The notes under the pieces: model-generated
The model's database searches: none
What the model saw: the letters and a program-made list of their open reading frames with translations, nothing else
What the model was told of the DNA's origin: nothing
Source of the DNA: a virus
DNA length: 39,248 nucleotides
Virus record (IMG/VR): IMGVR_UViG_3300033141_005605
Location: 1-39,248 of that record
Reading direction: 5' to 3' (one strand)
Program-made: the position numbers and the translations under genes
Shown: positions 4,545 through 37,899 of the stretch, one piece after another
Layout of the letters: every line of letters begins with the position of its first letter
Position numbering within the stretch: position 1 is the first letter of the stretch

Positions 4545-4547
4545 CAG

Positions 4548-5201: not shown

Positions 5202-5257
5202 TCGTATTCATCCGCCCGACCCGCCTGCGTGCAACGCACAGGCAGGAATGTTCCGCA

Positions 5258-6220: not shown

Positions 6221-6229
6221 GATAGGCTC

Positions 6230-6883
6230 CTAGAATCCGAGAACTTCATCTTCCTCACACGGGGGCGTTTGTCCGTAAAGGTCTTTGAGGCGCTGATAAC
6301 CGGCCTCAAGCCGTTCGCAGAACGCCGCCAATGCCTGCCTCAACGCCTTCTGGGCGGCCGCCACAGGCCGACATTCCGCGATGAACGGCGGAAACTCCGG
6401 ACAATACGACATGAACACCCAGCGGTCGGCCCCCGTCACGTAAAGCGCCCCCTGGATTTGCGGCAGATACTCGTCCGGCACCTCGCCGCTCATCAGGTAG
6501 CCCACGTGGGTATGCGGCATGGGACACTTGACCTCGATGCCGCTCCCGTCGTCAAATAGACCGTCCGGCGAACAACCGACACGCCCGTCGTCCGTCGTCA
6601 AGAAACCGACGCGACGCACCCGGCGCGACGAAAGAATCTCGTAGTACGGAATGGCTTCGGCTTCGCGAAGGCTCCCCTGCTCCAGAACGCCGCCGCCCCA
6701 AGAAGGCAACGGCGACCCGCGCCACTTCTCGGCGAGTTTCTTGTAGAAATACGTGTCCACGGCTTTCCCGGTCTTGATTTTCCAAGCCGGCGTGACCAGG
6801 TTCTTGAACTCGCTGGCCGTCGGAATACCCGCCCGAAGCCGTAGCCACTCTTCGGTACCCTGTTTGACGTCGTGGATAATCAC
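6230..6883 (-). CDS. YqaJ / lambda-exonuclease family recombination nuclease
   Basis: 217 residues. The start is GTG at 6883, overlapping the upstream stop (GTGA). Motifs in order: QGTEEWLRLRAGIPTAS (residues 8-24), GCSPDGLF (D107), GIEVKCP (E117-x-K119) and PQIQGALYVT. This is the PD-(D/E)XK core of YqaJ/Red-alpha exonucleases with the C-terminal Gln motif. It would resect duplex DNA 5' to 3' and load the ERF protein whose gene is ten bases downstream. Length is typical for the family and catalytic residues are intact. Confidence 0.9.
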   Translation of the reverse strand: MIIHDVKQGTEEWLRLRAGIPTASEFKNLVTPAWKIKTGKAVDTYFYKKLAEKWRGSPLPSWGGGVLEQGSLREAEAIPYYEILSSRRVRRVGFLTTDDGRVGCSPDGLFDDGSGIEVKCPMPHTHVGYLMSGEVPDEYLPQIQGALYVTGADRWVFMSYCPEFPPFIAECRPVAAAQKALRQALAAFCERLEAGYQRLKDLYGQTPPCEEDEVLGF

Positions 6884-7269
6884 GGGTCACACTTCCGGTA
6901 ATCGTGCGCCGCTTCGATGAGCGATTCCCAGTCGTCCGGTTGCCGCGTCACGTTCTCGGCCAGTTCCATCGCGACCAGGGCCGCCTCGTCGAACAGGCCG
7001 CCAAGCACGTGATCGTGGCGAGAGTGCCGACCACGATAAGACCTCCAGGCTTCCCAGCCCAGTCGAATCAGTTCGACGACCGCATCTTTCGCGATGTCGG
7101 CGTCGTCCTGGTCCATCGGCGGCCCAAGGGGCTTGGCCCGCTGCGGCCGACACACGCCGCAATAGCACGGCCAGACGGGCAACGAAGTCGACTCGAAGGT
7201 ACGATGACAACGGGCACACCGAACGACGTGGAGTTTGGCGTCCACCGCGTCTTGCTGAATGGCCTTCAT
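6880..7269 (-). CDS. zinc-ribbon protein of unknown function
   Basis: 129 residues from ATG at 7269 (MKAIQQDAVDAKL), chosen for the AAAGGAGA ribosome site and its ATGA overlap with the upstream gene; longer starts lie inside that gene. Residues about 17-43 hold CARC...CYCGVC, a four-cysteine metal-binding knuckle. The rest is helical (DIAKDAVVELIRLGWEAW..., LFDEAALVAMELAENVTRQPDDWESLIEAAHDY). The position next to the exonuclease suggests a DNA-metabolism accessory, but nothing specific is recognised. Confidence 0.75.
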   Translation of the reverse strand: MKAIQQDAVDAKLHVVRCARCHRTFESTSLPVWPCYCGVCRPQRAKPLGPPMDQDDADIAKDAVVELIRLGWEAWRSYRGRHSRHDHVLGGLFDEAALVAMELAENVTRQPDDWESLIEAAHDYRKCDP

Positions 7270-14101: not shown

Positions 14102-17100
14102 CTATGCTGCCGCCCGTCCGGCGGCGCCCCAAGTTTTCGTCAACGTGCGCAGCGCGGCGACGCGCTCGGCCGTCGGTTTGTCCCGCAGGATGTCTCGCAA
14201 CAGGGCGCGGGCACGCACGAGCGTCATACCGGCGTCCCGCAACTTGCGAGCCGCTGCGACGTTCCCTTCGGCGGCCCGTTGAACGGTGCGCCGTTCGTCC
14301 GTTTTGCCCCGCGTTTTCTTTTCGCGCCGGAACGGTGCGGCGACGATTTCGGTCGTGTTCAGAACCGCCAACGCAGGCAGACCGAGCAACCCGCCCAGGC
14401 CCCGCGTCAGGTTGGCGGCCGCCCGCATGACGGCTTTGCCGCGCTTCGGTCCGTCGAAGATGGCTTGTCGCAGGTCCACCAGGGCCTTGCCGGTGTTCTC
14501 CAGCGTCGTGACGGCGATGTTCCCGCGCAGTCCGGCCTCATACGAGGACCGCGCCCGCAGGAGATGGACGAGTTCGCCGCCGAAATAGATGTTGCCAGCG
14601 ACGTTCTCCACGTAATCCAAGCCCACGGCGCCCGCGCTCTTGGGCGGTTTGCCGCGCAAGGCCCGCGCACCGACGCCGATGAGGGTGTAGATGGCCGAGA
14701 GGAACGCCAGAACCGATAGCGACCACAAGAACGGCCTGTAATCGCCGGTACGCACGGCGGCGGCGTGCGACCGCAACACCATGTTCAGATACTGGATTCG
14801 CTGGGACATGAACCGCGTAAAAACGCTCCAAAGGGCGCTGGTGCGCGACAGGCGGCCCATACCCGTGTCGTGTGCCGGCGAGTTCGGCGGTTGAGTCCGG
14901 TTCGTGTGTCGGCTCGTCGCGTCCGCCGCGCGGTTCAGGATAGCGTCGCCGTTCTCCAGCCGCCGGACCGTATCGAGCAACTTTCCTTTCGGGGCGCGAA
15001 TCCCAGCGGCCTTCAACTGGTCCTCGATGTGGGCGGCGTAAATGGCCGTAATGGCGCGACTGTCCGCCCAACGCATCCCCTCCATGCCCTTGGCGCTCAA
15101 GCGCATCAGACGCCGCCACATCTTCCGGCGACCGAACGTGTGCGTCGGAACGTAGCCAGGCGAGACGATGGACAAGGCGCTGCGATATTTCCAGCGATAG
15201 GCGAACTCCGCCGCCCGATTCATGAGGTCATCGCGCAGCGCCTTGAACTCCCCGCCCAGCCAGGCGTGGTACATGCCCGAAAGCAACCGGCCGATGCCAA
15301 GCGGTTTCGTATCGGCCGCGGGCGCAAGCGCCGAAGGTACTTGCATGATAATCGGCTTGGCGCGCCCCGTTAGGGCGGCACGGACGGCGTTGCGGAGCAA
15401 CTTGGCGGTGAGTTCGTCCGGTTCGGCCGCCGGTTGCATCGTCCGCGTCGCCATGATGTGCCGAAGATGGTCGAAAAAGATACGCGCCGTGGGTTTGCCG
15501 AGCGTCGCGTCGATGTGGCCCGCAACGGTCAAACCTTCGACGTTCGTTCCGAGCAGTTTCCAGGCGTCGTAAACGACCGGAGCGTAAGCCACGTAGGCGG
15601 CGTCGCCGTAGGTTTCCTCGAAATATTGTTCCAGCGGGTCGCAGATGATGATGGACGCCCGCGAACCGGTACGACGCTTGTATCGGCCCGCTTCGCCGAT
15701 GATGGGCAACGCATCAGGGCTGGACAGGTCGGGGGGTTCCTGCTGCTTTTCGAGCGAGACGTTTCGTTTGCGTCCCCAACGATCTTCGACGCGCTCCAGG
15801 TACGTTCCGTCGAGGCGCTTGTGCGTCTCGCTGATGGGGTCGAAGTAATCGTCATTGTTCTTGAAGTCTTTCAGCACCAGTCCGAAGTCGATGGCGACCG
15901 CTTCGTGTTCGGCCATGTAAGCCCGAAACGCGTCGATGTCGGCCATGACGGGGCGGAACTTCGGGCCTTCGCGGGCTTTTTTCCAGACGAATCCGGCCCA
16001 TTTTTCGGCGACCATCTCGGCTTCGGTGTCAGGGTCGGAAAGGTTCAGCCAAAGACCGAGCCACGCGCCGCGGGTAGCGGTTTTCTTGCCGAGCGTCGGA
16101 AACGTGAGGGTTAAGGGTTCGTTCCACCACTGGTAAAACTCTTCACTGTCGATACTGCCGCCTGGACACTTTTCCGCGGCTTTCGCCACGTTATCTTCGG
16201 CGGCGACGACCATCTCGGCATATCGCCGGTGGGCGGAATCCACCTGGTCGATGAAATAATACGCCGCGACGGAATCTTCGCCGCCCATGTAGCGTTCGGC
16301 GAGCGTATTCGTCTTGACGACGGTGCTTCGGCCCAGACGACGCAAGGCGCTCAGTTCCCTCGTCCGCGCCTGATGCTCTTCGGGCGTGACGGGGCTGGAA
16401 GCGTGCATTTCCGTCAACAGGGCCTTGGCTGCCACGAGGCGATTCGTGTGACGTTGACTCGCCACCAGGGCCTGTTCGGATTTCTGGCGAAAGACGGCTT
16501 CGTCCGCGCGGTCGGCCAGGTCGTCCAGGGCGTCGAGGTCCATCGCGAGCAACGGCCGCTTCTTCGTGCCGATGAGTTTCAGAAGTTCGTCCGCTTCGGC
16601 CCGCACGTCCGGTTCCATTTCGAGCCGATGTTTCTTGAGCCATTTTCGGGCCTTCTGCAACCGCTTGATGGGCTTGTCCTTCAGGAACCGGACGAGATAC
16701 TTGTCGGCCTGTTCCATCGCCTTCAGATACGCGCCGGGCGTTTCGGGCCACCGGCCGCTAAAGACCTTGCCACGCAACGGCATAGGCAACTTCTTGATGA
16801 CGGCCTTGAACGCCTTGAGCGTTTCGGCGTGTTCGGCTTGCCTGGCGCGAAGGGCCTTGAGTCTGGCCAGGGCGCGCCGGGCCTCACGGCGAGCGACCTT
16901 GAGTTCGGCCTTGGTCACCTTGACCGGTCGCTTCTTTTCCGGCGCAGGCTGGGCGGCGGGCGGCGCTTCGGGCGGTTTCTTGGGCGGTTGTTCGCCGCCC
17001 AACGCCCGCTTCATTTCCAGCATATCCTTGGCGGCCCGACGGTCGGCCTCGGTCGCGGCAATCGCCGAAGGTTTGGCTTCTTCGACGGGTTTCGGGGCCG

Positions 17101-19924
17101 GTTGGGGAGTCGGTTCCGGCGCCTTGGCGGCGGCGGGCTGAAGCAGTTTCCGCAACCGTCGAGCCGTTCGGATTCGGACCTTGCGTTTCGTGCGCAGATT
17201 CGTCGCGTCCCATCCGCCACGAGGATTCTCGCGGTCGATGCGAACGGGGGTGGTTTTGCCGCTGACCTTGACGGCATAGACGTCGCCCACCTGGACGGTT
17301 TTCTTGGTGATTTTGGCGGGTTTCTCGACGGCCTTCGGTTTCTCAACGACCGCCGCAGGCTTTTCGACAACCACTTCGGGCTTCTCGGCAACCGATTTAG
17401 ATTTCTCGGTAGTCGCAGCAGTTTTGGCTGTAGTAAGACATGCGCTCAAATCCAAGCGATTCAACCGCCGTCCCAAGTAGAGCGGTTGTTCAGGATCATA
17501 AGCACGATGGTCAATCCACCATGATGCCCTAGTCTTTGACGCCAATGCCGCTTCAATCTGGGCAGCCATCTCATCACATTTGGCCATTGCTTCCGCGTAT
17601 CGCGGATGGTCGGGATGAATGCCCTTGCTCCGCATGGACGCCTTGAGGGCATCCGGCAACCACGCCTTGGTATTAGCGATAATATTGCGAGCCCAAGCGA
17701 TTTGTTTATCGCTGCCGGTCAGAGGAATATCCTCTAGTTTCTGTGCCGGCGGGGCGGAAGGTTCGGGCGCGGGCGCGGCCAGTTCGGGTTCCGCCGGAGG
17801 GGGTTCCGCCGCCGTTTCGGCAACGGCGCCGCCTGCTTGTTCGGCGGGGGCGGGCGACGGTTCCACCCCTGAAGGGGCCGCTTTGGGCGCGCCTTTCCCA
17901 ACCCCCGCCGAACGTTCAAGATACGCTTTGGCCCAAGCAAGACCTTTGCGCGCATAAGGCTCGACAACAGCCGGTGGAACCGATTTACCTGCTTTTACCG
18001 CCTCGCGAACAGCCGCCTTGTGTTCTTTCTCGAGGAACTTCTCATATTCGAATTGGGTCAGACCACCCCTTTTCCTCACTATCTTATCTGGCGAAAATCT
18101 TTTGTGCGTCATCCGTTCCGCAACGTAATCTTCTTGCGACATCTGCCATGTCTGCGGAACCTCACCCGTACCCTGTCGCCACCGGAAAAACGCTTCATTG
18201 AGTTGCTCTTGCGTTTTGTAGGTAGCGCCTTTGAGCCGTTTACCTCGTGACTTGCCCTTGCGGTAAACTCCTTCCGCCTCCCTCTCGGCGCGCTTCATGG
18301 CTTGCTCGCGGTTGATGCCGAAAGATTTGAGGTCGATACGGACACGTTCGCCGGGTTTGAAGTCCCCGGGGTTTAGCCCGAACATCTCGGGGCGAATCGT
18401 CCATTTCAAACCATCGTGGAACACAAACTCGCCATCGGCGTTCACGGTAAAGGTCGGGTCAACAGCAAACTCGGGCGCAGCATCGACCATCTTACGCACA
18501 AAGGAAATGATTTTTCTAGATACCCCCTTCTCGTGGATTTTCGCAGTCACACCCTCCTTGGTCACTACGTGGTCGGGTTTTTGTTTGGCCCGCTCTCGCA
18601 GTTCGTCGATGATGGCAAGGTTGGCGGCCTTCTTGGAAATGGCAGATGCCAGAGTTTCCGCCGCCTCACGCGAGACGCCGACCGCCAGCGCCGCCTGCAA
18701 TACGTCGCCGCCGTGTTCGCCGAGAGCCGTGTAAATCTTGTTGACTATCGCCCGCGTCAGTCCAGGAATGGGCTTGGCGGCCCGCTGCAACATCGCCTTG
18801 GTCAGTTTGCCGGACGGTACGGGTAAACCGCTGAAGAGCCGCGAACCGACCAACTCGCGGTAAATGTCCGTAGGAATGCCGCCCTCACGTTTCAGGCGAC
18901 GGGCAAACTCGGCTAACGTTTCGCCTGGACGCTGACCTTCAAATCGCGGCCTTGCGCCCGAAGGCGGCGGCGGCAACGTCATGGCCGTAGTCGGTTTCTT
19001 CAGGAGCCGCGACAACGGAACGCGCGCGAGGTCCATCCCCGCCGAGAGCAAACCGCCCGCAGCGGCGGACGCCAGGCCCGCCGCGGCAATCTCGCGGGGC
19101 GTGCTTTCCGGTCGGGCGGCCGTTTCAAGCGCACCGGCCGTGCCGAGCGTGGCGGCGTAGGGAATGGCCCGACGCCCCGCCCCGCGCAACGCCGTCCGCG
19201 CCGCCGCACCCAGAGGAAGCCCGCGAAGCGTCGTCAGCGGCGGCGGCGGCGGCGCACCGATGGCGCGGCCCATCGGACCCGTCACGGCCGAAAGCGCCTT
19301 GCCGGTACCGTAAAGTTCGCCCGCCGTCTCGGACCACCACGCAGGATCGCGCAGCGCCGCGATTCCACGTTCACCGAGAGTCGGTACGCCCATCCGCTGA
19401 AGCATCCCTCGTCGCGTCACGGCGGAAACGTCGCGGAACCGTCCAGCCGCTTCGCTTCCAGGCAACCCCGTCCGCGCATAGGTTCCGATAGCCGCTCGCG
19501 GAACCGCCTGGAACGCGCGTGAAACGCCGCCCAGCCCCGCCGCGATGGTTCTGGCCGCGCCGCCGAGTCGGGCCGCAGGCTGGGCGCGTTCCCTTTCAAA
19601 GGCTTGAACAGCCCTGCGCGGAGCGGCCATCCGCGCGATATCTTCGCCCAGACCGCCGCTAATCACGTTGAGAAACTCGGTGCCCGCCACGGCCGGCGCG
19701 ACGGCTTTCTCGCCCCACGTCAGCCATCGCGGTTTGGGCGGCAACGGCAGTTGCCTTCCGCGCCGTTCCGCCGCTCGCACCTCTTCGGGCGTCGGTATCG
19801 CTTCCGGCGGAATCGGCGGCAAACTCGTGGCCGGTTCCGGTACGGGCAACGGCGGCGGAGGCGGCGGGCGCAACAGCGATTCCCGCGCCGTTTTCTGCCT
19901 GATTTTCGTCTGTTTCCGCGCCAT
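14102..19924 (-). CDS. giant multidomain protein, polyvalent / internal virion type (1,940 aa)
   Basis: A single uninterrupted frame from ATG at 19924. The N-terminus is basic, then Pro-rich (residues ~18-45), followed by Ala/Gly-rich helices (to ~330). Around residues 730-815 is a GSDKQIAWARNI...WWIDHR block seen in phage polyvalent proteins, flanked by Pro/Ala linkers and Lys/Val repeat linkers (VVEKPAAVVEKPKAVEKPAK). A long charged helical middle (~1,000-1,250) follows. Near residues 1,730-1,760 a hydrophobic segment (FLWSLSVLAFLSAIYTLIGVGA) suggests membrane interaction. Such proteins are usually packaged and ejected with DNA. No transglycosylase, polymerase or protease signature was recognised. 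Confidence 0.7.
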   Translation of the reverse strand: MARKQTKIRQKTARESLLRPPPPPPLPVPEPATSLPPIPPEAIPTPEEVRAAERRGRQLPLPPKPRWLTWGEKAVAPAVAGTEFLNVISGGLGEDIARMAAPRRAVQAFERERAQPAARLGGAARTIAAGLGGVSRAFQAVPRAAIGTYARTGLPGSEAAGRFRDVSAVTRRGMLQRMGVPTLGERGIAALRDPAWWSETAGELYGTGKALSAVTGPMGRAIGAPPPPPLTTLRGLPLGAAARTALRGAGRRAIPYAATLGTAGALETAARPESTPREIAAAGLASAAAGGLLSAGMDLARVPLSRLLKKPTTAMTLPPPPSGARPRFEGQRPGETLAEFARRLKREGGIPTDIYRELVGSRLFSGLPVPSGKLTKAMLQRAAKPIPGLTRAIVNKIYTALGEHGGDVLQAALAVGVSREAAETLASAISKKAANLAIIDELRERAKQKPDHVVTKEGVTAKIHEKGVSRKIISFVRKMVDAAPEFAVDPTFTVNADGEFVFHDGLKWTIRPEMFGLNPGDFKPGERVRIDLKSFGINREQAMKRAEREAEGVYRKGKSRGKRLKGATYKTQEQLNEAFFRWRQGTGEVPQTWQMSQEDYVAERMTHKRFSPDKIVRKRGGLTQFEYEKFLEKEHKAAVREAVKAGKSVPPAVVEPYARKGLAWAKAYLERSAGVGKGAPKAAPSGVEPSPAPAEQAGGAVAETAAEPPPAEPELAAPAPEPSAPPAQKLEDIPLTGSDKQIAWARNIIANTKAWLPDALKASMRSKGIHPDHPRYAEAMAKCDEMAAQIEAALASKTRASWWIDHRAYDPEQPLYLGRRLNRLDLSACLTTAKTAATTEKSKSVAEKPEVVVEKPAAVVEKPKAVEKPAKITKKTVQVGDVYAVKVSGKTTPVRIDRENPRGGWDATNLRTKRKVRIRTARRLRKLLQPAAAKAPEPTPQPAPKPVEEAKPSAIAATEADRRAAKDMLEMKRALGGEQPPKKPPEAPPAAQPAPEKKRPVKVTKAELKVARREARRALARLKALRARQAEHAETLKAFKAVIKKLPMPLRGKVFSGRWPETPGAYLKAMEQADKYLVRFLKDKPIKRLQKARKWLKKHRLEMEPDVRAEADELLKLIGTKKRPLLAMDLDALDDLADRADEAVFRQKSEQALVASQRHTNRLVAAKALLTEMHASSPVTPEEHQARTRELSALRRLGRSTVVKTNTLAERYMGGEDSVAAYYFIDQVDSAHRRYAEMVVAAEDNVAKAAEKCPGGSIDSEEFYQWWNEPLTLTFPTLGKKTATRGAWLGLWLNLSDPDTEAEMVAEKWAGFVWKKAREGPKFRPVMADIDAFRAYMAEHEAVAIDFGLVLKDFKNNDDYFDPISETHKRLDGTYLERVEDRWGRKRNVSLEKQQEPPDLSSPDALPIIGEAGRYKRRTGSRASIIICDPLEQYFEETYGDAAYVAYAPVVYDAWKLLGTNVEGLTVAGHIDATLGKPTARIFFDHLRHIMATRTMQPAAEPDELTAKLLRNAVRAALTGRAKPIIMQVPSALAPAADTKPLGIGRLLSGMYHAWLGGEFKALRDDLMNRAAEFAYRWKYRSALSIVSPGYVPTHTFGRRKMWRRLMRLSAKGMEGMRWADSRAITAIYAAHIEDQLKAAGIRAPKGKLLDTVRRLENGDAILNRAADATSRHTNRTQPPNSPAHDTGMGRLSRTSALWSVFTRFMSQRIQYLNMVLRSHAAAVRTGDYRPFLWSLSVLAFLSAIYTLIGVGARALRGKPPKSAGAVGLDYVENVAGNIYFGGELVHLLRARSSYEAGLRGNIAVTTLENTGKALVDLRQAIFDGPKRGKAVMRAAANLTRGLGGLLGLPALAVLNTTEIVAAPFRREKKTRGKTDERRTVQRAAEGNVAAARKLRDAGMTLVRARALLRDILRDKPTAERVAALRTLTKTWGAAGRAAA

Positions 19925-28472: not shown

Positions 28473-28661
28473 CTAGGTTCCCAACGCCGCGCGACCGCCA
28501 CGGCGGCTTTTCGCGGCGTTCTGCATCTTCTTCTTCGTGCATCCCATGACGGCTCGGAAATCGTCGCCGTAAGTCTCCCGACATCCACGCCAAAAGGATT
28601 CGGCTTTCGCCATGGGTACGCCGTATCGTTTCGCCATCGAACGCAGTGCTGGAAGCGGCAT
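28473..28661 (-). CDS. small basic protein (62 aa)
   Basis: The ATG at 28661 overlaps the upstream stop (TGATG). Product MPLPALRSMAKRYGVPMAKA..., then ESFWRGCRETYGDDFRAVMGCTKKKMQ and a basic tail. It resembles the short helical 'LP.LRK.AK..G....KAE..W' proteins often placed after portal genes in phages; their role is unknown. It may bind nucleic acid or capsid. The terminator follows 65 bases downstream. Confidence 0.65.
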   Translation of the reverse strand: MPLPALRSMAKRYGVPMAKAESFWRGCRETYGDDFRAVMGCTKKKMQNAAKSRRGGRAALGT

Positions 28662-29029
28662 CACCGACTCCTAATCCGTATCCGCCTTTTTTCCCGTTCC
28701 TGACGAATCGCATTTTCCAGCGGCTCTTTGGCCGCCTTGCCTCGACGGCGGTTGCACAGGTCAATGTCGCGGTCGTCGGCGAACACGACGCCGTCGGATT
28801 CCATGCGGGCGATGTCGTGGCGCGTCTCCAAACGATACCCCGCTAACCGGCCCAGACGTTTGACGTGCGGGCTGATGCTCGTGTCCGTCACCAACGCCGG
28901 AGTCGACGGAACGCGCCGGGCCGCCCGGGCGCCGCAGACGCGACAACGACAAACCGACGGCGCGTGCATCCGCTCGACGGTCTCGTATCGCTCGCCGCAG
29001 ACGCTGCATTGTCGGTCATACCGCGGCAT
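28661..29029 (-). CDS. FmdB-type zinc-ribbon protein (122 aa)
   Basis: ATG at 29029 behind GGAGGCGGCCC, overlapping the last 14 bases of the portal gene. The N-terminus MPRYDRQCSVCGERYETVERM, then CRCRVCGARAARR, is the FmdB ribbon (CxxC...CxxC). The remainder is basic and helical (GRLAGYRLETRHDIARMESDG, KAAKEPLENAIRQEREKRRIRIRSR). A second, different FmdB-like gene precedes the terminase ATPase. Probably a virion-assembly or DNA-contact accessory; function unproven. Confidence 0.75.
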   Translation of the reverse strand: MPRYDRQCSVCGERYETVERMHAPSVCRCRVCGARAARRVPSTPALVTDTSISPHVKRLGRLAGYRLETRHDIARMESDGVVFADDRDIDLCNRRRGKAAKEPLENAIRQEREKRRIRIRSR

Positions 29030-31004
29030 GGGCCGCCTCCATCCCTTCGACCGCGCCGACCGGTTCGGGCGGCAGTTCCACTTCCGGTATACGCGGTACC
29101 AGGTGCGAGAAATCTTCCAGGTCCATCAGTTCCAGAACCTTCTCGACGGCGTCCCGATAAGCCTGGAAATCCCCCGTCTGCTGGACCAACGGCATAATCA
29201 GTTCCGACAACACCTGCCTGAACTGATGGGCGCGTTCGATTTTCTGCCGCCGTTGCGTGCTGCCGTGCTCGACTCCGACGTGAATCTCACGGAGCAACAC
29301 GTCAATCGGCTGATTCCCCGACCAATACGCCGCCAAATCCGGCCCCACGATGGCCTCGACGCCGAGACATTCAATCTCGCCGTCCATCAACGCCAGTTTC
29401 TGCGACACTGATTCCCACGGCCCTTCCTCTTCGACCAGCGCGGGGCCGTAAATCTCCATGCCCGTCTCGTCCCGCCCGACGACCTGGCCGTTCGGGTCGA
29501 TGTATTCCACGGTCGTCCACCGCGGCAACACCTTGTGGGCCATCTGCATGGTCTTTCGGGCAATCTGCAACTGGAACCGCTCGTACTCGCGCATCCGCCG
29601 TTCCAACTTGGCCGTGGCGCTGTCGATGCGCGTGCTGATGCTCGTGGCCGTTTCGTTCCCCACCGAGTCCGGTTCGCCGGAACGCATAATCTCCGGAATC
29701 ATGCTGATACGGTCGTAGGTCTGCTGAACGTGCTCGATGTATTCTAAATCCTGTCGCTCAATCGTGCCGTAATCCACCGGAACGATGAGGGGTTTTCCGT
29801 CAGGCGTCAACGCGTTCATGAATACCTGTACGCGGTCGCTGGACATCATCTGCGCAACCTGGTGTTCGTCGTACCCGCATCCCGACGTTGCCAGAAACTT
29901 CGGCGGATTCCGCAACGCCGCCCGCGTGTGCAGGTCCGTCAACGCCGTCTCGTGGTCGGCTAGAATGCGTTTCTCGTGCTGATAATCCGTGAACCCATAA
30001 ATCGTATCGTGGCTCCGGTTGTACTGCAGAATCGTCACGGGCCATTCCCCGTAATCCAACAAGTACGGGGCAGGCCAGTCCGGCACGTCGTCGAGCGGCT
30101 CGTCCAACCCTTCCACCAACCGGACGTATCGCCGCGGTTCGTTCATCGCGAAACGGTCGCGGAACCGCGACCATTGCGGTTTGCCTTCCGGCCCCGAATC
30201 TTCCGGCCGCGGGTCGGTGTCGTACAAGGCGTATTCGTTGCGGAGATACAGGTGCCACACGCGACATCGGGCCACGGTATCCTTGACGTCGGCCATCGCC
30301 CGTTCGCGGTCGAAATCGACGTTGCCGACGGCCTCGGTTTCACCGTCGTCCGTTTCGGCCCGTTGAGATTGTCGCGCCGACTCGGCCGCTTTCGCCAGTT
30401 CCGACAACGGCCGACCGGTTTCCCGCGCCAGAAGTTCCGCCGATTCGTATTCGCAGACTGCCACCCATCCGGCATCTTCCAGGCGAGAAGAAAGACCGTC
30501 GAACCGGACGTGTTCCGGCGGCAGACGTTGAATCGTCGGCAATCCGCGCTTGTGGTCCCAGCGATGCCAGATGACGCCCAGGTTCACCAAGTCCGCGTCG
30601 TGCCGCGCGTCGCGAATCTCCTTGGCGAAATCCTGTTCCTCGAAAATGTACTGGTACAACTCTTCGTCGCATTCGGCCGCCCCCGCCACGCGCGGGTTGT
30701 CGGCGTGCGCTCCCTTGGCCTGAAAATGCACGGTCGCCGGCTGCTGGTCCAGAAACGCCGCCTGCGTGTCAATCTTCGTCCGGAACAGGTTCGCCCGCGG
30801 CGGTAAAGGGTCGTCCGCTTTCCCTGCGTAAGCCTCGCGCGCTTCACGCCACGCTTTCCGCGGTATGGGCGTGGCCGTCTTGATGAGCGAGAAGAAATGA
30901 CGCGCCCGGTCGCGCATCCGTTTCGGGTCGTCGGAAGCGCCGCCCGCCGCGGGAATCGTCCGCGCCCAAGGTCGTCGTCCGGCTGCCGTCGTCTCTTTCG
31001 CCAT
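29016..31004 (-). CDS. portal protein (P22-like)
   Basis: 662 residues from ATG at 31004 behind GAGGTGAACGG. The N-terminal helical region (RMRDRARHFFSLIKTATPIPRKAWREAREAYAG) and PPRANLFRTKIDTQAAFLDQQPATVHF lead into the stem/crown core. There, WHRWDHKRGLPTIQRLPPEHVRFDG, LEYIEHVQQTYDRISMIPEIMRSGEPDSVGNETATSI and a long helix (RIDSATAKLERRMREYERFQLQIARKTMQMAHKVL) follow the large-portal pattern. The size and the position between terminase nuclease and scaffold genes agree. It forms the dodecameric DNA channel at one capsid vertex. Confidence 0.85.
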   Translation of the reverse strand: MAKETTAAGRRPWARTIPAAGGASDDPKRMRDRARHFFSLIKTATPIPRKAWREAREAYAGKADDPLPPRANLFRTKIDTQAAFLDQQPATVHFQAKGAHADNPRVAGAAECDEELYQYIFEEQDFAKEIRDARHDADLVNLGVIWHRWDHKRGLPTIQRLPPEHVRFDGLSSRLEDAGWVAVCEYESAELLARETGRPLSELAKAAESARQSQRAETDDGETEAVGNVDFDRERAMADVKDTVARCRVWHLYLRNEYALYDTDPRPEDSGPEGKPQWSRFRDRFAMNEPRRYVRLVEGLDEPLDDVPDWPAPYLLDYGEWPVTILQYNRSHDTIYGFTDYQHEKRILADHETALTDLHTRAALRNPPKFLATSGCGYDEHQVAQMMSSDRVQVFMNALTPDGKPLIVPVDYGTIERQDLEYIEHVQQTYDRISMIPEIMRSGEPDSVGNETATSISTRIDSATAKLERRMREYERFQLQIARKTMQMAHKVLPRWTTVEYIDPNGQVVGRDETGMEIYGPALVEEEGPWESVSQKLALMDGEIECLGVEAIVGPDLAAYWSGNQPIDVLLREIHVGVEHGSTQRRQKIERAHQFRQVLSELIMPLVQQTGDFQAYRDAVEKVLELMDLEDFSHLVPRIPEVELPPEPVGAVEGMEAAHAAV

Positions 31005-31008
31005 CCGT

Positions 31009-32004
31009 TCACCTCATCCGCGCCGGCACGGCCTTCGCCCTGCCGTATTGCCCCAAAGCCAGGTCCGCGGGCCGAATCGCCTGCCTGGCCCGACGTTGCC
31101 ATACCACGCTGGGCGTCTGACACAAGTATCGAACCACGTCCGGACCGTCTTTGTCCCTGTCCTCGATCCTCTCCGGCCCTGGAACCTGTCCCCCCACGTC
31201 TTTCCATCGCAGGTTCGCGCACTGCTCGAACAGGCTCTGCGAACCGTCGGCACATTCCGGATGAAACCAGACGGCCGGATGGGCCGCCAACCGTTCCAAC
31301 GCGCTTCGCGTGAGCGACGCCGGAAGTTTCGGATGAACACGATACCCGTTCCAGATACTCCACCTGGCCAACGCCGCCATGAACGCCTGCGTCAACCAAT
31401 CGTATCCCGTCCGGCTATTGTCCGCTCGAACCAGCGGCAACCCGTTTTCCGCGTAGATTTCCGCCGGCGTCCGCGCGTCCGTCTTGCTCCGTTGCCACGC
31501 CGCGGGGTCCGCCACCGTCGCCGCGATGGATTCGTCCGCCGGCGTCGCCTGGAGAATGTTCCACGCATTGACCGCCGCGGGCAGGTCCGTCGCGTAATAT
31601 TGCCGATAGAAATACCGGTCCCCCGCCTCGTGCCGACCGCGACCCCGATGAATCGCCATCCAGGCACAACACGTCGGATGACGCGTGCCAGGGTCCAAGC
31701 CGCGGTACAACGTCCAATCGTCCGTCAACAACTCGCGATACGGTTTCCGCCACACGTGGACCTCACGGTCCAACATCGGCCAGACCGGCGAACCCCCGCG
31801 GACGAGTTCAATCTCCATCTCGCGTTGCCACGCGACCGTATGCCGACCGCCGTACAACATGGACCGCTCGTCCGCCCACGCCTCGTCGTGGTCAGGGTCG
31901 TCGCGCCAGTGAATCGGTACCACGACGAACCCCGTGGCCAGTCGCCGCACGGGTTCACGCAACCCTTCCGGCCGCTCGATGACTTTGCCCGCAATGGCCA
32001 GCAT
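31009..32004 (-). CDS. terminase large subunit, separate nuclease half
   Basis: 331 residues from ATG at 32004, overlapping the upstream stop (TGATG). Residues ~26-50 (FVVVPIHWRDDPDHDEAWADE) and ~60-85 match the segment that follows the ATPase in ordinary large terminases. YRGLDPGTRHPTCCAW (D104) is the first RNase H-fold nuclease strand, LVRADNSRTGYDW a middle acidic motif, and KDGPDVVRYLCQ the C-terminal acidic helix. No ATPase motif is present; that part is encoded at 33955-34749. Together they make one complete TerL in two chains. It would cut concatemers during headful packaging. Confidence 0.8.
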   Translation of the reverse strand: MLAIAGKVIERPEGLREPVRRLATGFVVVPIHWRDDPDHDEAWADERSMLYGGRHTVAWQREMEIELVRGGSPVWPMLDREVHVWRKPYRELLTDDWTLYRGLDPGTRHPTCCAWMAIHRGRGRHEAGDRYFYRQYYATDLPAAVNAWNILQATPADESIAATVADPAAWQRSKTDARTPAEIYAENGLPLVRADNSRTGYDWLTQAFMAALARWSIWNGYRVHPKLPASLTRSALERLAAHPAVWFHPECADGSQSLFEQCANLRWKDVGGQVPGPERIEDRDKDGPDVVRYLCQTPSVVWQRRARQAIRPADLALGQYGRAKAVPARMR

Positions 32005-32669
32005 CAACCCGCCTCTTCCAAGTGCGACGCACGCTCACGTTGCACGGACCACGGCACCAAGTCCGCTTGACGAATCTCGACGCCCGCCGCCTCCAGCCCC
32101 GTACACAACGAACGCCAAATCTTCGCCTCGTTCGACCAACGATACGGCGTCGAAACTCGCTCCGTCGGTCCGCTGTACACGCTATCCTCGAGGCCCAGGT
32201 TCATCCCATAACAGTCGATGCGCTTCGCCCCGAGCCAGTATGCCAACCCCAAAGCCGTCGTCCCGCTGTACCGGTACCACTTGGACCGCCTGACCGGCTG
32301 GACCACGTGCGGATAAACCGTCTCGTGCAACTGTTCCTTGAACACGGTCCGCGGCCGGTCACGTTCCCACGCCGCCGAAACCGCCTCGTCGTCCGCGTTC
32401 CGCACGGCGTCCGGTACGCTCGCCCGCAGACACAACCGCCGCTGGTCCGCCGGTCTGTCCCACGTGCAACATTCCACGTACCGCGTCTCATCCGCGATAA
32501 CCCACCAGTCGCACTCTTCGACGAACCCCGCGTACATCGCTGCAATTACAACGTCGTAATCCTGTCGGCCCGGATAAAGAAGCGCGCTCCGGCCGTCCGC
32601 GACAATCGCCACCCGCTTCGACAGGAGCGGCCCGGGCGGCGGCAACGGTTCGTTGGCCACGTCGCTCAT
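32004..32669 (-). CDS. glycosyltransferase-fold protein (sialyltransferase / MptE-DUF115-like)
   Basis: 221 residues from ATG at 32669. VAIVADGRSALLYPGRQDYDVVIAA is a Rossmann-type opening; DWWVIADETRYVECCTWD follows. SGTTALGLAYWLGAKRIDCYG (then MNLGLEDS) is the most telling part. A 'TG..AL.LA..LGAK.I.LYG.D' segment is shared by GT29/GT42 sialyltransferases and MptE/DUF115 proteins. The gene lies four bases into the end of a CMP-sugar-synthetase-like gene, so a pathway (activate sugar, then transfer) is a natural inference. The exact reaction is unproven. Confidence 0.6.
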   Translation of the reverse strand: MSDVANEPLPPPGPLLSKRVAIVADGRSALLYPGRQDYDVVIAAMYAGFVEECDWWVIADETRYVECCTWDRPADQRRLCLRASVPDAVRNADDEAVSAAWERDRPRTVFKEQLHETVYPHVVQPVRRSKWYRYSGTTALGLAYWLGAKRIDCYGMNLGLEDSVYSGPTERVSTPYRWSNEAKIWRSLCTGLEAAGVEIRQADLVPWSVQRERASHLEEAG

Positions 32670-33397
32670 ACCGCCGCCCTTCCGCCTTCACCGCGCGGCG
32701 GCTGAACGCGGCAGGCGGACCGGTCGCTCCATAACCTCTCCGCGGCCGACCAATCGGTTTCCGTGTCCAAATCGACCGATTCGTCCGCCGGCACCTCGAA
32801 AACCTCCAGCCGACCTGAAAACGTGCCGTTCATCCCGACCGCTTCACGCGCCAAATACGTGTCCGCACGGATGCCCGTCAACGCCCAGACGATACGACGC
32901 AACGGCGGCAGGTCTTGGGTCCGCCGCGTGTCACGGTACGTAAAAAGCGGCCGACCGTCGGCGTCGAGCCAATAGGCCCGCTCTTCCGTCGCCGTGAAAA
33001 GCACGTCCGCATCCGACACCCGCATCCTGGCCAAAAACCGCTCGGCCGTCCTCTTCCGCAGAAGCGGCGCCGTCGTGTTCCACCACAACAGCCGATGCCA
33101 ACCTTCCGTCAACCCCAACTGGACCAACATATCCATGATGACGAGGTTGAACCGCGTTTCACGGGCCAATCCGGGCGGCTCGTGTATCAACTGGGCACCC
33201 GCCGCCCGCGCTGCCTTGGCCACCTCACGCGAGGCCGTGTAAACGTATGGACCATCCACGCCAGGCATCACTTCGCAGACTTCGCGCGCCAAACCGACCG
33301 CGTGGGCCACCAGCGGCTTACCGGCAAACAAGCGAAGGTTCTTCCCCGGCACCCGCTCGCTCTCGACCTTCGCCGGAATGACGCACGCGATTTTCAT
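32666..33397 (-). CDS. acylneuraminate/CMP-sugar cytidylyltransferase family protein
   Basis: 243 residues from ATG at 33397 (ATGA overlap with the upstream gene). The N-terminus MKIACVIPAKVESERVPGKN, then LRLFAGKPLVAHAV, is the signature P-loop-like CTP-binding start of NeuA/KdsB-type enzymes. WWNTTAPLLR corresponds to the QPTSPLR motif. DADVLFTATEE and GIRADTYL.REAVGMNGT follow, with VDLDTETDWSAAERL at the end. All fit CMP-N-acetylneuraminate synthetases. It would couple CTP to a nonulosonic acid-like sugar. Finding it inside the packaging operon, between terminase halves, is highly unusual. Confidence 0.8.
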   Translation of the reverse strand: MKIACVIPAKVESERVPGKNLRLFAGKPLVAHAVGLAREVCEVMPGVDGPYVYTASREVAKAARAAGAQLIHEPPGLARETRFNLVIMDMLVQLGLTEGWHRLLWWNTTAPLLRKRTAERFLARMRVSDADVLFTATEERAYWLDADGRPLFTYRDTRRTQDLPPLRRIVWALTGIRADTYLAREAVGMNGTFSGRLEVFEVPADESVDLDTETDWSAAERLWSDRSACRVQPPRGEGGRAAV

Positions 33398-33933
33398 TCG
33401 ACCGGTTCCAGGTCTTTCGCGTCGAGGTACAGGCCGTTCGGTTTCCCGTCAATCGCCACCTTGACCTTTCCGCCACGCCTGCGCCGGACCACGCCTTCGC
33501 CGAACTTGCTGTGACGGACGCGCTGGCCCTCGGAGAACCCCGCGGCTTCCGGCGTGAGCGGCCCGCCGTCCAGCATGTTCGCCACCGGCACACCCAGCCT
33601 GCCGGCCTTGTTCTCGATGAGAACGCGGGCCTTCTCACGCTGAAGCCGCACGACCTCCGCCAGTTGCGCCTGCTCCTCTTCAGATAGAGGCGTCGCCGCG
33701 GGCGCAAACGGCTCTTCCACCTCGTTCACTTCCGGGGGCGGGGGCGGCTCGACCGGCACGTTTAGACCCGCATCCGCCTGGTCGTTGATGGTGATGTGCT
33801 TGTTCGCCACCGGCTCCTTCTCCGGCGGCGTCTGGGGCGCCTCCGGCGTCACCGGCGTCTCCGGCTCCCGCGCCTCAACTTTGACGTGCTCATCCGCCGA
33901 CTGTTTCTTACGCCTGCCCTTGCTCTTGGCCAT
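33394..33933 (-). CDS. disordered-linker protein with C-terminal Tudor/KOW-like domain (179 aa)
   Basis: ATG at 33933 behind AAGGAG. The N-terminus is Lys/Arg-rich (MAKSKGRRKKQ), then a long Pro/Glu/Val-rich linker (residues ~20-95) and a helix (SEEEQAQLAEVVRLQREKARVLIENKAGRL). The C-terminal ~45 residues hold GQRVRHSKFGEGVVRRRRGG, then KVKVAIDG. This is the Tudor-like module seen at the end of UvrD-type helicases ('G..V.H..FG.G.V'), where it contacts RNA polymerase or DNA. It is the first gene of the insertion between the terminase halves; a transcription or packaging adaptor role is possible. Confidence 0.65.
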   Translation of the reverse strand: MAKSKGRRKKQSADEHVKVEAREPETPVTPEAPQTPPEKEPVANKHITINDQADAGLNVPVEPPPPPEVNEVEEPFAPAATPLSEEEQAQLAEVVRLQREKARVLIENKAGRLGVPVANMLDGGPLTPEAAGFSEGQRVRHSKFGEGVVRRRRGGKVKVAIDGKPNGLYLDAKDLEPVE

Positions 33934-33954
33934 CAATCCGCTCCTTATTTAGGC

Positions 33955-34749
33955 TTACGCCGGCACGGCCTCTACGCCCGGCCGATACGCCCCGACGGAC
34001 CCCCCGCCGAGGCGGTCCTGCAACAACTCCTCGTACATGAACCCAAAATCGGCCGAACCGATGCAGGTAATCCGCTCGCAACAGGCCAACGCGTACCCAT
34101 ACGATTCGGCCGCGTCCTCGTGCAATTGGAACTCGTCCGCTATCCACCACGACGGCGTGTGCGACTGCAACTGGTGGGCACCGTGGGCCACCGCCCGCAA
34201 AACGCTGCCGTTGGCGAACCGGACGTAGGTATCCGCTCGCCGGACAACCGGCGTCGCCAGCCACGGGGCGAACTCCGTCAGGCGGTCATAGGCGCCCATC
34301 AGCCGGTCACGCAATACAGCCACGGCCTGGGCCTCGTCCTGGCTCTGGAACATATACAGCCGCCCGCCGGTGAACATGGCGTCACCGAGAATGTACCCAG
34401 CCACTAGCCACGTCACCATCATTTGGCGCGATTTGGGAATGACGACGAACCGTTCGGCCCAAAGGTAATGGGCCAAGGTCTGAAGGTACCGCTTCGGCGG
34501 TAGTGTCCTGTGGGGCGACTTCCACCCCTTTTCCCGCCACCACTGATCTTCGGTCACGAAGTAGTTGACCAAGAAGTACCACGGCGACCGCTCGCATCTG
34601 ACCTGCTCGCGGGCCTGAAGTTGGCGGTCTTTGGCCGCCCGACGCAAGAGGTCGTGGCTAACCGTCGGCTCAAGCGTGGCGTCGAGAGGGTCTTGGCAGT
34701 CCTCCGTTGGCGCCCACGGCACGTACTGCCTATCGGCCACCATCACCAT
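33955..34749 (-). CDS. terminase large subunit, separate ATPase half
   Basis: 264 residues from ATG at 34749 (TGATG overlap with the zinc-ribbon gene). VVIPKSRQMMVTWLV (103-117) is the SRQ-type Walker A of phage terminases, WWIADEF (201-207) the Walker B with catalytic Glu, and CIGSAD (229-234) the coupling motif. The chain ends soon after (stop at 33955) with no nuclease domain. The nuclease starts 1.95 kb further on at 32004. The break falls at the natural inter-domain linker, so this is a clean domain split rather than a random truncation. Confidence 0.85.
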   Translation of the reverse strand: MVMVADRQYVPWAPTEDCQDPLDATLEPTVSHDLLRRAAKDRQLQAREQVRCERSPWYFLVNYFVTEDQWWREKGWKSPHRTLPPKRYLQTLAHYLWAERFVVIPKSRQMMVTWLVAGYILGDAMFTGGRLYMFQSQDEAQAVAVLRDRLMGAYDRLTEFAPWLATPVVRRADTYVRFANGSVLRAVAHGAHQLQSHTPSWWIADEFQLHEDAAESYGYALACCERITCIGSADFGFMYEELLQDRLGGGSVGAYRPGVEAVPA

Positions 34750-34988
34750 CAGCGGCGCCCTCCTGCCTGCCGCTCACCCACTGGCGGGGCACGGCCGCGG
34801 TCCCGCCGCGAGTCCGTCGCGTAGAAGCCAGGGCCACGGAATATCACCGCCCCGCCCGCGCCAATCTGTCGCCGCGCTCGCCGACCACAAACAGGACAAC
34901 GCCGACTCTGCGGCGCCTCGCCCATGCTGCAGAAGTGCTCATGCCGATGGCCGCGGCTGCAGAGGTAGTCGTAAGTGGGCACGCTCAC
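34749..34988 (-). CDS. FmdB-type zinc-ribbon protein (79 aa)
   Basis: ATG at 34988 (MSVPTYDYLCSRGHRHEHFCSM); its stop meets the terminase ATPase start and its start overlaps the terminase small-subunit stop. RRCPVCGRRARRQIGAGGAVIFRGPGFYATD is the usual FmdB continuation, including the characteristic F.GPGFY.TD end. The first metal site is CSRGH rather than CxxC, so His may replace Cys. Coupling on both sides to terminase genes suggests a packaging accessory. Confidence 0.8.
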   Translation of the reverse strand: MSVPTYDYLCSRGHRHEHFCSMGEAPQSRRCPVCGRRARRQIGAGGAVIFRGPGFYATDSRRDRGRAPPVGERQAGGRR

Positions 34989-35455
34989 CCCCGCTTTTGA
35001 CGCCCAGGCTTCCCGCCGCCCTCGCCGTCGTCGTCGTGCTTGTCCCCGCTCTCGCCCTCGTCCTCCGCAAACGCCGCACGCACGCCGTCCGCACCGGCAA
35101 CCGTCGGGTCAGGATGACGAAGCCGAATCTCGCCGCGTAAATCCACCTGTCGCCGCTCCGTCCGCCGCCATTGGTCGGGGTCGATGGACTCCAGCCACCG
35201 CGCCGACGATTCCCACCGAAGTTCACCGCGAGCAATGCGACGCTCCGCCTTGGCTTTGGCTTCGCCAATGGCCTTTTTTAGGACGGGCACGAGAGAGGCA
35301 TAAGGTTCCTTGCCTTCATCCGCCCACGTTCGCCAATGCCTCAACTGCCTTTCGGAGATTCCGACGGCTTCGGCCGCGTTTTTCAGGCTCGCGCCCTCGC
35401 GGATGTCATCGGCGAGTTTTGCGACCAGTTTCGGCGTGCACTTTGGCGTTTTCAT
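34985..35455 (-). CDS. terminase small subunit
   Basis: 156 residues from ATG at 35455. The N-terminal region TPKLVAKLADDIREGASLKN, then AAEAVGISERQLRHWRTWADEG, is the helix-turn-helix of TerS proteins. PYASLVPVLKKAIGEAKAKAERRIARG is the oligomerisation helix, and SSARWLESIDPDQWRRTERR is a typical TerS block ('A..WLERR.P..W'). The C-terminus is acidic then basic (DKHDDDGEGGGKPGRQKRG). It would recognise pac DNA and load the ATPase encoded 240 bases downstream. Confidence 0.85.
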   Translation of the reverse strand: MKTPKCTPKLVAKLADDIREGASLKNAAEAVGISERQLRHWRTWADEGKEPYASLVPVLKKAIGEAKAKAERRIARGELRWESSARWLESIDPDQWRRTERRQVDLRGEIRLRHPDPTVAGADGVRAAFAEDEGESGDKHDDDGEGGGKPGRQKRG

Positions 35456-36221: not shown

Positions 36222-36262
36222 ATTTTGTCCGCGGCCGACGCGGGCAGGAAAGGAGAGAGACG

Positions 36263-36586
36263 GTGACGAAGTACACTTACCATTTGGCCGAAGAGGTTGG
36301 GCCGTGCCATTTCGCATCCGCAGGCATGCGAGCAGAGGACGGCGAGTACTACCGTGTAGGCCGCCAGGACGAGGCAGGATTCCCGGTTTGGGACACCGGC
36401 CACCGCGTCACCCTTGGCTACTGGCCAGAAGCGGGCCGGGCCGTCGTCTGTGAGGGCGACAAGGCCACTTGTTGGATGGACGCATCATCGGCGATAGACG
36501 CACTCCGCAAGTGGACGGAATCCGTCGGCGCGAACATGGACCCTTGGGCAGAGTTGGCCGCATGGCGCCGCCGTCACGACCAGTGA
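36263..36586 (+). CDS. small unknown protein, paralogue of the next gene (107 aa)
   Basis: GTG at 36263 behind AAAGGAGAGAGACG. The product has TYHLAEEVGPCHFASAGMRAEDGEYYRVG, then HRVTLGYWPEAGRAVVCEGD and a Trp-rich end. It matches the following gene in YTY.L.E.VG, GEYYR, LGYWP..GRA.VC and A..AL.KW. An in-frame ATG at 36140 has GGAGG seven bases upstream and would add 41 residues spanning the hairpin leader. The GTG start is preferred because it aligns with the paralogue and its spacer resembles the other cassettes. Confidence 0.7.
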   Translation: MTKYTYHLAEEVGPCHFASAGMRAEDGEYYRVGRQDEAGFPVWDTGHRVTLGYWPEAGRAVVCEGDKATCWMDASSAIDALRKWTESVGANMDPWAELAAWRRRHDQ

Positions 36587-36600
36587 AGGTTTGACACCTT

Positions 36601-36698
36601 CCCCGCCCGTGCGGCGGGGCCTGCCCCCTACGGGAGGCAAGCCCGGCCGCATGACGTGGCCAAGGCCAGCCCGCGGCCGATGCGGGCGAGAAAGGAGG
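36601..36698 (+). repeat. hairpin cassette 1 (intergenic RNA-structure repeat)
   Basis: Hairpin 1 CCCCGCC/GGCGGGG (36601-36619). Hairpin 2 TGCCCCC-TACG-GGAGGCA (36622-36639). Hairpin 3 GGCCGC/GTGGCC (36645-36661). An extra hairpin CCCGC/GCGGG (36670-36686) comes before the AAAGGAGG ribosome site. Same order as in cassettes at 36977 and 37695. Confidence 0.8.
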
Positions 36699-36704
36699 AT
36701 GGCG

Positions 36705-36968
36705 ATGATGGAGTACACGTACATGTTGGGCGAGTCCGTCGGGGCCGAGCATGCGTATTGCGACATGGCCGAGCCGGGCGGCGAGTACTACCGTATCCAC
36801 CGCTACGGCGAGGACGGGTACGAGGTCACCGGCAACGCCATTATCCTTGGCTACTGGCCGGCGTCCGGTCGGGCCGCCGTCTGCGATGGCGGAGACTCGA
36901 CGTGGCTCGACGCCGCGTCCCCAGAAGAGGCGCTCGCCAAGTGGGCGGCCGGCGACGTCGACCCTTGA
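36705..36968 (+). CDS. small unknown protein, paralogue of the preceding gene (87 aa)
   Basis: ATG at 36705 (six bases after AAAGGAGG; ATGs at 36699 and 36708 are poorer or equivalent). Product MMEYTYMLGESVGAEHAYCDM, then GGEYYRIHRYGEDGYEVTGNAIILGYWPASGRAAVCDGGD and DAASPEEALAKWAAG. It is clearly homologous to the gene at 36263. It is small, acidic and soluble, with no known domain. Duplicated early-type accessory proteins of this kind are common in phages; the target is unknown. Confidence 0.75.
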   Translation: MMEYTYMLGESVGAEHAYCDMAEPGGEYYRIHRYGEDGYEVTGNAIILGYWPASGRAAVCDGGDSTWLDAASPEEALAKWAAGDVDP

Positions 36969-36976
36969 CACCCGCC

Positions 36977-37034
36977 CCCCGCCGTGCGGCGGGGCCTGCC
37001 CAGCACGCTGGGCGCGCCCGGCCGCATGGTGGCC
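36977..37034 (+). repeat. hairpin cassette 2 (intergenic RNA-structure repeat)
   Basis: Hairpin 1 CCCCGCC-GTGC-GGCGGGG (36977-36994), hairpin 2 GCCCAG-CACG-CTGGGC (36998-37013), hairpin 3 GGCCGC-ATG-GTGGCC (37020-37034), then GAAAGGAG. The stems are kept relative to the other cassettes although bases and loops differ. Confidence 0.8.
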
Positions 37035-37051
37035 ACGAAAGGAGATAGACG

Positions 37052-37351
37052 ATGAATACCTCAATCCGATTTGTGGTGCATGCTGTAAAATGGCGGGACC
37101 GGCGATACGGCAACACGTATCATTCGGTGCGAGTGTATCGGACCGATACTGGCGAAGTGCTCGCCGTGCCGATGCAATACGGCTACGAGGACCAGTACCG
37201 CCAGACGGCCCTTGGGGCGATGCGCCGTCGCGGATGGATTACCCCGCCGCCCGGCGAACACCTCGTGGATGGCGATTATGCCACCTTGTGGATCGTGGCG
37301 GACGGGAAGAAACAAGAGTGCGTGAATCACGGGCAGTTGTCGCTCGAGTAA
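37052..37351 (+). CDS. small unknown protein (99 aa)
   Basis: ATG at 37052 behind AAAGGAGATAGACG. Product MNTSIRFVVHAVKWRDRRYG, then NTYHSVRVYRTDTGEVLAVPMQYGYEDQYRQTALGAMRRRGWI. The 'NTYHSVRV...GYEDQY...A...L' arrangement recurs in phage and bacterial hypothetical proteins, but no function is known to me. The C-terminus is DYATLWIVADGKKQECVNHG. Confidence 0.75.
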   Translation: MNTSIRFVVHAVKWRDRRYGNTYHSVRVYRTDTGEVLAVPMQYGYEDQYRQTALGAMRRRGWITPPPGEHLVDGDYATLWIVADGKKQECVNHGQLSLE

Positions 37352-37385
37352 TCCCCGCGCCCGGCCGTGCGGCCACGAAAGGAGG
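37352..37385 (+). repeat. partial hairpin cassette (third hairpin only)
   Basis: A short spacer keeping only GGCC-GTGC-GGCC (about 37363-37374) and the shared CACGAAAGGAGG ribosome site. Hairpins 1 and 2 of the full cassette are absent here. Confidence 0.6.
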
Positions 37386-37391
37386 ATGAGG

Positions 37392-37688
37392 ATGAAGGCA
37401 CTTGGCACCATCACGGGCGACAACCTCATGCAAGCCGTCCAGCGGGCCTATGGGCCGTTGGCGAAGGCCACCGCAATCAACGAGGTGCTCTTCCCCGGCC
37501 GCGGATGGGTACGGCTCGACGTCGATGCCCGCCAGACCCGCCGAGACTGGCGAGAGGTCCTCGCCGAGCACATCCAATTGACCGCCGAACTCGGCGCGAC
37601 CGCCTGGAACGTCCGTATCTACACGTGGCCCAACCAGGCGGGCCAGCCGCACGACGCGGACTTCCGCCTCCTGGAGTTGGTCAAGTGA
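37392..37688 (+). CDS. small unknown protein (98 aa)
   Basis: ATG at 37392, six bases after AAAGGAGG (the ATG at 37386 is too close). Product MKALGTITGDNLMQAVQRAY, then GPLAKATAINEVLFPGRGWVRLDVDARQTRRDWREVLAEHIQLTAELGATAWNVRIYTW. It is mixed alpha/beta with a helical centre. No family is recognised. It is followed by hairpin cassette 3. Confidence 0.7.
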   Translation: MKALGTITGDNLMQAVQRAYGPLAKATAINEVLFPGRGWVRLDVDARQTRRDWREVLAEHIQLTAELGATAWNVRIYTWPNQAGQPHDADFRLLELVK

Positions 37689-37694
37689 CCATCA

Positions 37695-37755
37695 CCCCGC
37701 CCGTGCGGCGGGGCCTGCCCAGTACGCTGGGCGCGCCCGGCCGCATGGGGCGGCC
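37695..37755 (+). repeat. hairpin cassette 3 (intergenic RNA-structure repeat)
   Basis: Hairpin 1 CCCCGCC/GGCGGGG (37695-37713), hairpin 2 GCCCAG-TACG-CTGGGC (37717-37732), hairpin 3 GGCCGC-ATGGG-GCGGCC (37739-37755), then CACGACAGGAGG. Confidence 0.8.
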
Positions 37756-37772
37756 ACGACAGGAGGATGAGG

Positions 37773-37899
37773 ATGAGCACGCGCGGATACCAGAAGGCCC
37801 TTTATGTCGCAGATACGGTGCGGACCGCCGCTGTTTTTCATGCGCGCCGTGGGCGGTCTCGATACGGTCCGGATGAACTCGTCCTGGGAAGTGGATTGA
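37773..37899 (+). pseudogene. short gene apparently frameshifted at a T run
   Basis: ATG at 37773 with AGGAGG six bases upstream gives MSTRGYQKALYVADTVRTAA. In that frame there is no stop until 38198, so it reads through the strong terminator at 37919-37948. If one T of the TTTTT run at 37834-37838 is removed, the frame continues MRAVGGLDTVRMNSSWEVD and stops at 37897-37899, just before the terminator. This gives a sensible ~41-residue protein. A one-base expansion, a sequencing error or a +1 frameshift would each explain it. Confidence 0.55.

Follow-up and report, generated by a model that had tools for sequence, protein, structure and literature searches.

The stretch of DNA analysed here, called the window throughout, is the 39,248-base virus record IMGVR_UViG_3300033141_005605, which is possibly incomplete, and its minus strand carries a packaging operon in which the large terminase (TerL) is encoded by two separate genes. 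The operon runs in the order small terminase subunit (TerS), zinc-ribbon gene, ATPase gene, three intervening genes, nuclease gene and portal gene, and we refer to the products of the ATPase and nuclease genes as chain A and chain N (loci of relatives carry L numbers):

34985..35455, minus strand: TerS (phrog_4102, 4e-15), in the same operon and upstream of chain A
33955..34749, minus strand: chain A, the TerL ASCE ATPase core, 264 residues, its C-terminus at the core/lid border
34408..34434, minus strand: Walker A-like KSRQMMVTW of chain A, residues 106-114; K, S and R invariant in 68/68 relatives
34132..34149, minus strand: Walker B region of chain A with D205 and E206; D and E invariant in 68/68 relatives
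33394..33933, minus strand: first intervening gene, function unassigned; Shine-Dalgarno AAGGAG before ATG 33933
32666..33397, minus strand: second intervening gene, CMP-sugar cytidylyltransferase (NeuA/KdsB-like; PF02348, 1.9e-10; NeuA in PDB, 9e-6)
32004..32669, minus strand: third intervening gene, weakly sialyltransferase-like (phrog_4603, E 0.0065; BLASTP 7e-5 to a homologue in the gap of relative L133)
31009..32004, minus strand: chain N, TerL lid, linker and RNase H nuclease, 331 residues; ATG 32004 within a TGATG overlap
31795..32004, minus strand: lid and linker segment of chain N, about residues 1-70 (structural alignment, D6E domain limits, PMC5727402)
31138..31695, minus strand: nuclease catalytic stretch of chain N; D104 in 77/77, D166 in 77/77 and D289 in 75/77 relatives
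29016..31004, minus strand: portal protein, immediately downstream of chain N (weak: PF23899, 3.6e-4; phrog_12082, 0.004; position)

An earlier note on this DNA had proposed that TerL is divided into an ATPase gene (33955-34749) and a nuclease gene (31009-32004), and open reading frames (ORFs), profiles and structural models agree on this division. Neither window chain has a match in Pfam, and the nuclease chain is missed by PHROGs as well; the ATPase is recognised by PHROG TerL families, though weakly (~8e-7), and looks truncated. The ATPase family profile (68 relatives) matches T4 gp17 residues 96-299 (6e-22), and the nuclease family profile (77 relatives) matches the TerL of Geobacillus phage D6E (1e-14), P22 (1.8e-9) and SPP1 (1e-6), with one relative, L119, falling just below the cut-off for Pfam Terminase_3C (2e-5). 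In AlphaFold models of the single chains, chain A (pLDDT 85.6) resembles gp17 with a Z score of 23.4 and has the same ATPase fold and motif order, and residues 1-301 of chain N (pLDDT 85.5) lie on D6E TerL residues 179-417 with a Z score of 19.7, sharing the lid, linker and RNase H nuclease; gp17 and D6E TerL are each one polypeptide, whereas the window TerL is two. Chain A has the Walker A and B motifs of an ASCE packaging ATPase, its Walker A deviating from the usual form by an initial K in place of GKT, and chain N has the RNase H-like nuclease of a TerL with its three acidic residues. The neighbourhood is likewise that of a TerL, with TerS upstream and the portal gene (weak matches) downstream of the two genes. 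By predicted fold and residues, the window pair is a TerL, of two chains rather than a single polypeptide: there are two ORFs with three genes between them, and the split is found in 126 loci.

Judged from their sequence, the three intervening genes look real, intact and translationally coupled, as the same note had held. The AAGGAG motif precedes the first of them, an ATGA overlap at 33394-33397 couples the first to the second, another at 32666-32669 couples the second to the third, and TGATG couples the third to the start of the nuclease.

Structure comparison shows that the two chains are complementary along the D6E TerL, with chain A spanning D6E 14-189 and gp17 up to 305, and chain N spanning D6E 179-417. 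When natural single-chain homologues, which fuse the same two pieces, were aligned to D6E and gp17, the break fell at D6E ~186 and gp17 ~300-306; the gp17 nuclease domain begins at chain N model residue 72, and the D6E lid and linker precede it. The inter-domain linker of D6E comprises residues 230-241 (PMC5727402), and the break falls within the ATPase domain, where ASCE core and lid meet, ~45-55 residues before that linker. The initial description therefore needs correcting in two respects: it had the ATPase ending at the inter-domain linker, whereas the nuclease chain includes the lid, and it implied a test of independence between ATPase and nuclease, whereas the break splits the ATPase core from its own lid. 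With the core separated from its own lid, fully independent action of the chains is therefore unlikely. In the terms used for T4 (PMC3012670, PMC9958956), the engine would correspond to chain A and the transmission plus wheel/blade to chain N. In D6E the lid tyrosine Y213 touches the P-loop arginine R44 (PMC5727402), and with the Y213-equivalent region on chain N and the arginine on chain A, the contact that senses ATP would bridge two polypeptides. A conserved HY of chain N was considered as the counterpart of D6E Y213 and rejected, as it aligns to F197 (counted on the printed alignment); Y213 lies ~16 residues beyond F197, still within the part covered by chain N.

The split, which had been proposed as something to look for in related phages, is lineage-wide. 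Both domains were present at 142 loci, with 128 split and 14 fused, and removal of duplicates left 126 split loci including the window (~125 other contigs), all with one homologous break site. Single domains only were found at eight loci in the main survey and at L157, several of them ending at a contig edge. The ATPase precedes the nuclease in 94 loci, where the gap is at most 30 nt in 41 (a 4-nt overlap in 15 and a 1-nt overlap in 8), 31-140 nt in 9, and longer, up to 3.7 kb, in 44. The order is reversed (nuclease, other genes, ATPase) in 32 loci; the three of these retained in the ATPase tree form one clade (Shimodaira-Hasegawa-like approximate likelihood ratio test, SH-aLRT, 99), and TerS lies between nuclease and ATPase in the reversed-order clade (L029: PF03592, 6e-15). 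At one reversed-order locus (L057 2996-6004), a 1002-residue protein is encoded directly upstream of the nuclease with a 4-nt overlap. Metagenome-assembled genomes labelled Eremiobacterota, Omnitrophota, Chloroflexi, Phycisphaerae, Acidobacteria, WOR-3 and Betaproteobacteria include contigs with split pairs too.

L133, the relative closest to the window, has 47% (ATPase) and 42% (nuclease) identity to it and ~3.65 kb between the halves, and its gap (3804-7040) holds genes for a family-2 glycosyltransferase and a radical SAM/B12 protein, together with a homologue of the window's third intervening gene. Sugar-related genes thus sit in the TerL gap of both L133 and the window (32004-33397). HNH or GIY-YIG genes are found in the gap of L005, L064 and L018, which fits, without showing, a homing-endonuclease origin of the split. 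In L118, a tRNA gene (1242-1313) sits in the gap between the two TerL genes.

A contig search with the window nuclease as lone query gave no match, nor did tblastn of the same protein against a phage collection, and tblastn of eight other family proteins gave no match of at least 60% identity there, the matches listed having 23-34%. Because none of these nine family proteins found a match of at least 60% identity by tblastn, the phage collection searched appears to hold no isolate of the window's TerL family. Named records whose domains are similar were also considered as carriers of a split TerL and rejected, since phages RM378, Mel-JY01, JC1, HTVC103P, API480, Acj9, immuto, ctEqG8, Leptospira LE1 and TacPo2 and a Deinococcus plasmid all have one full-length coding sequence (CDS) at the match. 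In the literature searched, a partial set with most subscription papers outside it, no clade-wide natural two-gene TerL was found.

Both chains are under strong purifying selection. The median ratio of nonsynonymous to synonymous substitution rates (dN/dS) was 0.054 across 94 ATPase pairs and 0.093 across 35 nuclease pairs; the pairs share lineages, and dS was saturated in many. Each of 25 long records (22 split, 3 fused) has one ATPase and one nuclease region, intein-split matches being counted once. A second intact TerL, which the earlier note had named as evidence against a divided enzyme, was found neither in the window nor in these 25 records by family profiles and two general TerL families. 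Overall, we put at roughly 80% the probability that the two genes together are the only large terminase found in this phage, a two-chain ('genes-in-pieces') TerL.

When the ATPase tree is rooted on T4-like TerLs, the earliest branches are fused proteins, followed by one clade (SH-aLRT 98) that holds every split row. Five fused rows (L131, and L026/L046/L054/L068) are nested inside the split clade, and a single fused/split transition is rejected (approximately unbiased, AU, test p 0.001). In the nested fused proteins the linker retains the 'KG...W' with which the nuclease chain begins (profile positions 1-2 onward), whereas the basal fused proteins match the nuclease profile from positions 5-18. 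The simplest reading, which these data suggest, is one ancient split with two later re-fusions; several independent splits at one site are possible and need more changes.

We consider three other explanations. In the first, which is unlikely, the chains are separate machines, with packaging done by the ATPase ring on its own, in the manner of phi29-like phages, and the nuclease confined to cutting. phi29-type motors package without a TerL nuclease, which provides a precedent, and the genes studied here lie apart, are variably spaced and are even reordered. In the window, however, an intact TerL nuclease chain is present in the same operon, which differs from the phi29-type ATPase-only class, and chain N holds the lid and linker, which in D6E and gp17 are ATPase parts transmitting ATP hydrolysis. 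Both re-fusions joined the pieces in the same order and at the same junction, which also argues against separate machines, as does the finding that distances in the two chains correlate (r 0.78), although common descent is at least partly responsible for this and alone could explain it.

In the second, RNA trans-splicing or a split intein joins the halves again and the working TerL is one polypeptide, which we regard as very improbable. Phage terL genes split by introns and then spliced are known from ICP1 (PMC10448857) and Jug phages (PMC12363816), and terL of Campylobacter phage IBB_35 carries an intron and an intein (PMC3322345); all of these resemble the window in having terL spread over at least two ORFs that are separated by other sequence. 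The ICP1 and Jug terL genes are spliced back, whereas the window has no splicing element that was found, and a clade of its relatives has the reversed order, for which cis-splicing would give the wrong order (32 loci). Rfam detected introns neither in the window nor in 20 other loci, and Pfam, PHROG and Rfam searches found no intron or homing endonuclease at the window's break; together with the intein-room check, these searches agree with the original observation of no intron, intein or HNH gene there. Room for both split-intein halves (IntN/IntC) existed in 0/123 loci, with ATPase chains ending a median of 3 residues beyond the profile and all within 27 residues. True cis inteins (Pfam Intein_splicing, some with HNH), which lend the idea some support, interrupt the nuclease chain of several relatives:

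L096 1573-3612: intein-bearing nuclease chain
L108 2584-3987: intein-bearing nuclease chain
L109 2922-4940: intein-bearing nuclease chain
L119 6819-8357: intein-bearing nuclease chain
L125 2921-4894: intein-bearing nuclease chain
L141 4056-5858: intein-bearing nuclease chain
L127 3247-5205: intein-bearing nuclease chain (below cut-off)

In addition, the ATPase chain of L142 (5875-7389) has a ~280-residue insert near profile position 174 with no Pfam match.

The third, that the split is an artefact or pseudogene of a misassembled or decayed TerL, can be dismissed: although the contigs are short and metagenomic and relatives L072, L129 and L159 look frameshifted or broken, misassembly, the other refuting outcome that had been named, is untenable because ~125 other contigs share the break, and dN/dS is well below 1, catalytic residues are kept and a second TerL was not found.

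Returning to the two-chain TerL, we propose a single origin of the split, in a gp17-like ancestor, after which the gap would have acquired cargo genes. Chains A and N would be translated separately and would associate non-covalently, without splicing, through the surface between core and lid, the ATP-sensing cleft thus being built from two polypeptides. Most likely, the chain A-chain N heterodimer would replace each single-chain TerL subunit; several heterodimers would then be arranged as a ring at the portal, with the nuclease cutting at initiation and at headful. We think it probable that this is an obligate two-protein motor assembling in trans, of single origin, tolerating reordering and cargo insertion and re-fused at least twice. 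Several points weigh against this interpretation. The association of the chains is deduced from genes and separate single-chain models, and a cut in the T4 linker abolished translocation (PMC3012670), though at a different site. All records are metagenomic contigs and none is rated at least 90% complete, such that a second TerL outside the contig is conceivable. The deep branches of both trees are weak, and the nuclease tree, with its long outgroup branches, leaves the root undefined.

Other known systems resemble the window in part. In T4, gp17 artificially cut at the linker kept its ATPase and nuclease activities and lost translocation (PMC3012670), whereas the natural break lies ~55 residues earlier, at the core/lid border. 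In Parabacteroides phage phiPDS1 the TerL domains are also annotated as two CDSs (PMC10773633), but these encode 337 and 148 residues with 92 nt between, hence a different break; its authors suspected codon use or assembly (PMC10773633), and we rejected it as a relative of the window, with no match to either family profile. Ribonucleotide reductase in pieces, with function retained according to its title (Friedrich et al. 2007, title cited in PMC3322345), is likewise a phage enzyme present as two genes, with homing endonuclease genes in some of the gaps of TerL relatives as a further likeness. It is a different enzyme, however, and the TerL case involves a whole lineage and a ring motor, with reversed order and apparent re-fusion.

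Elsewhere in the window, two related zinc-ribbon proteins (34749-34988 and 28661-29029; BLASTP 3e-6, PF09723) stand on either side of the packaging genes, the first lying upstream of the ATPase and the second downstream of the portal. Between small genes at 36229-37776, a 62-nt GC-rich repeat occurs three times and a 27-nt repeat with AAGGAG five times, and two small genes in this region resemble duplicates. A 1940-residue ORF at 14102-19924 has as its sole match phrog_16123 (2e-8), a PHROG of unknown function.

Phages are routinely counted and placed in trees by their TerL, so the split also bears on annotation: of the window's two chains, the nuclease is missed and the ATPase scores weakly. 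In this lineage, nature cuts the motor elsewhere than at the T4 linker, keeping lid, linker and nuclease together, and the split allows us to ask directly whether it is the contact between core and lid or the link between lid and nuclease that has to be covalent.
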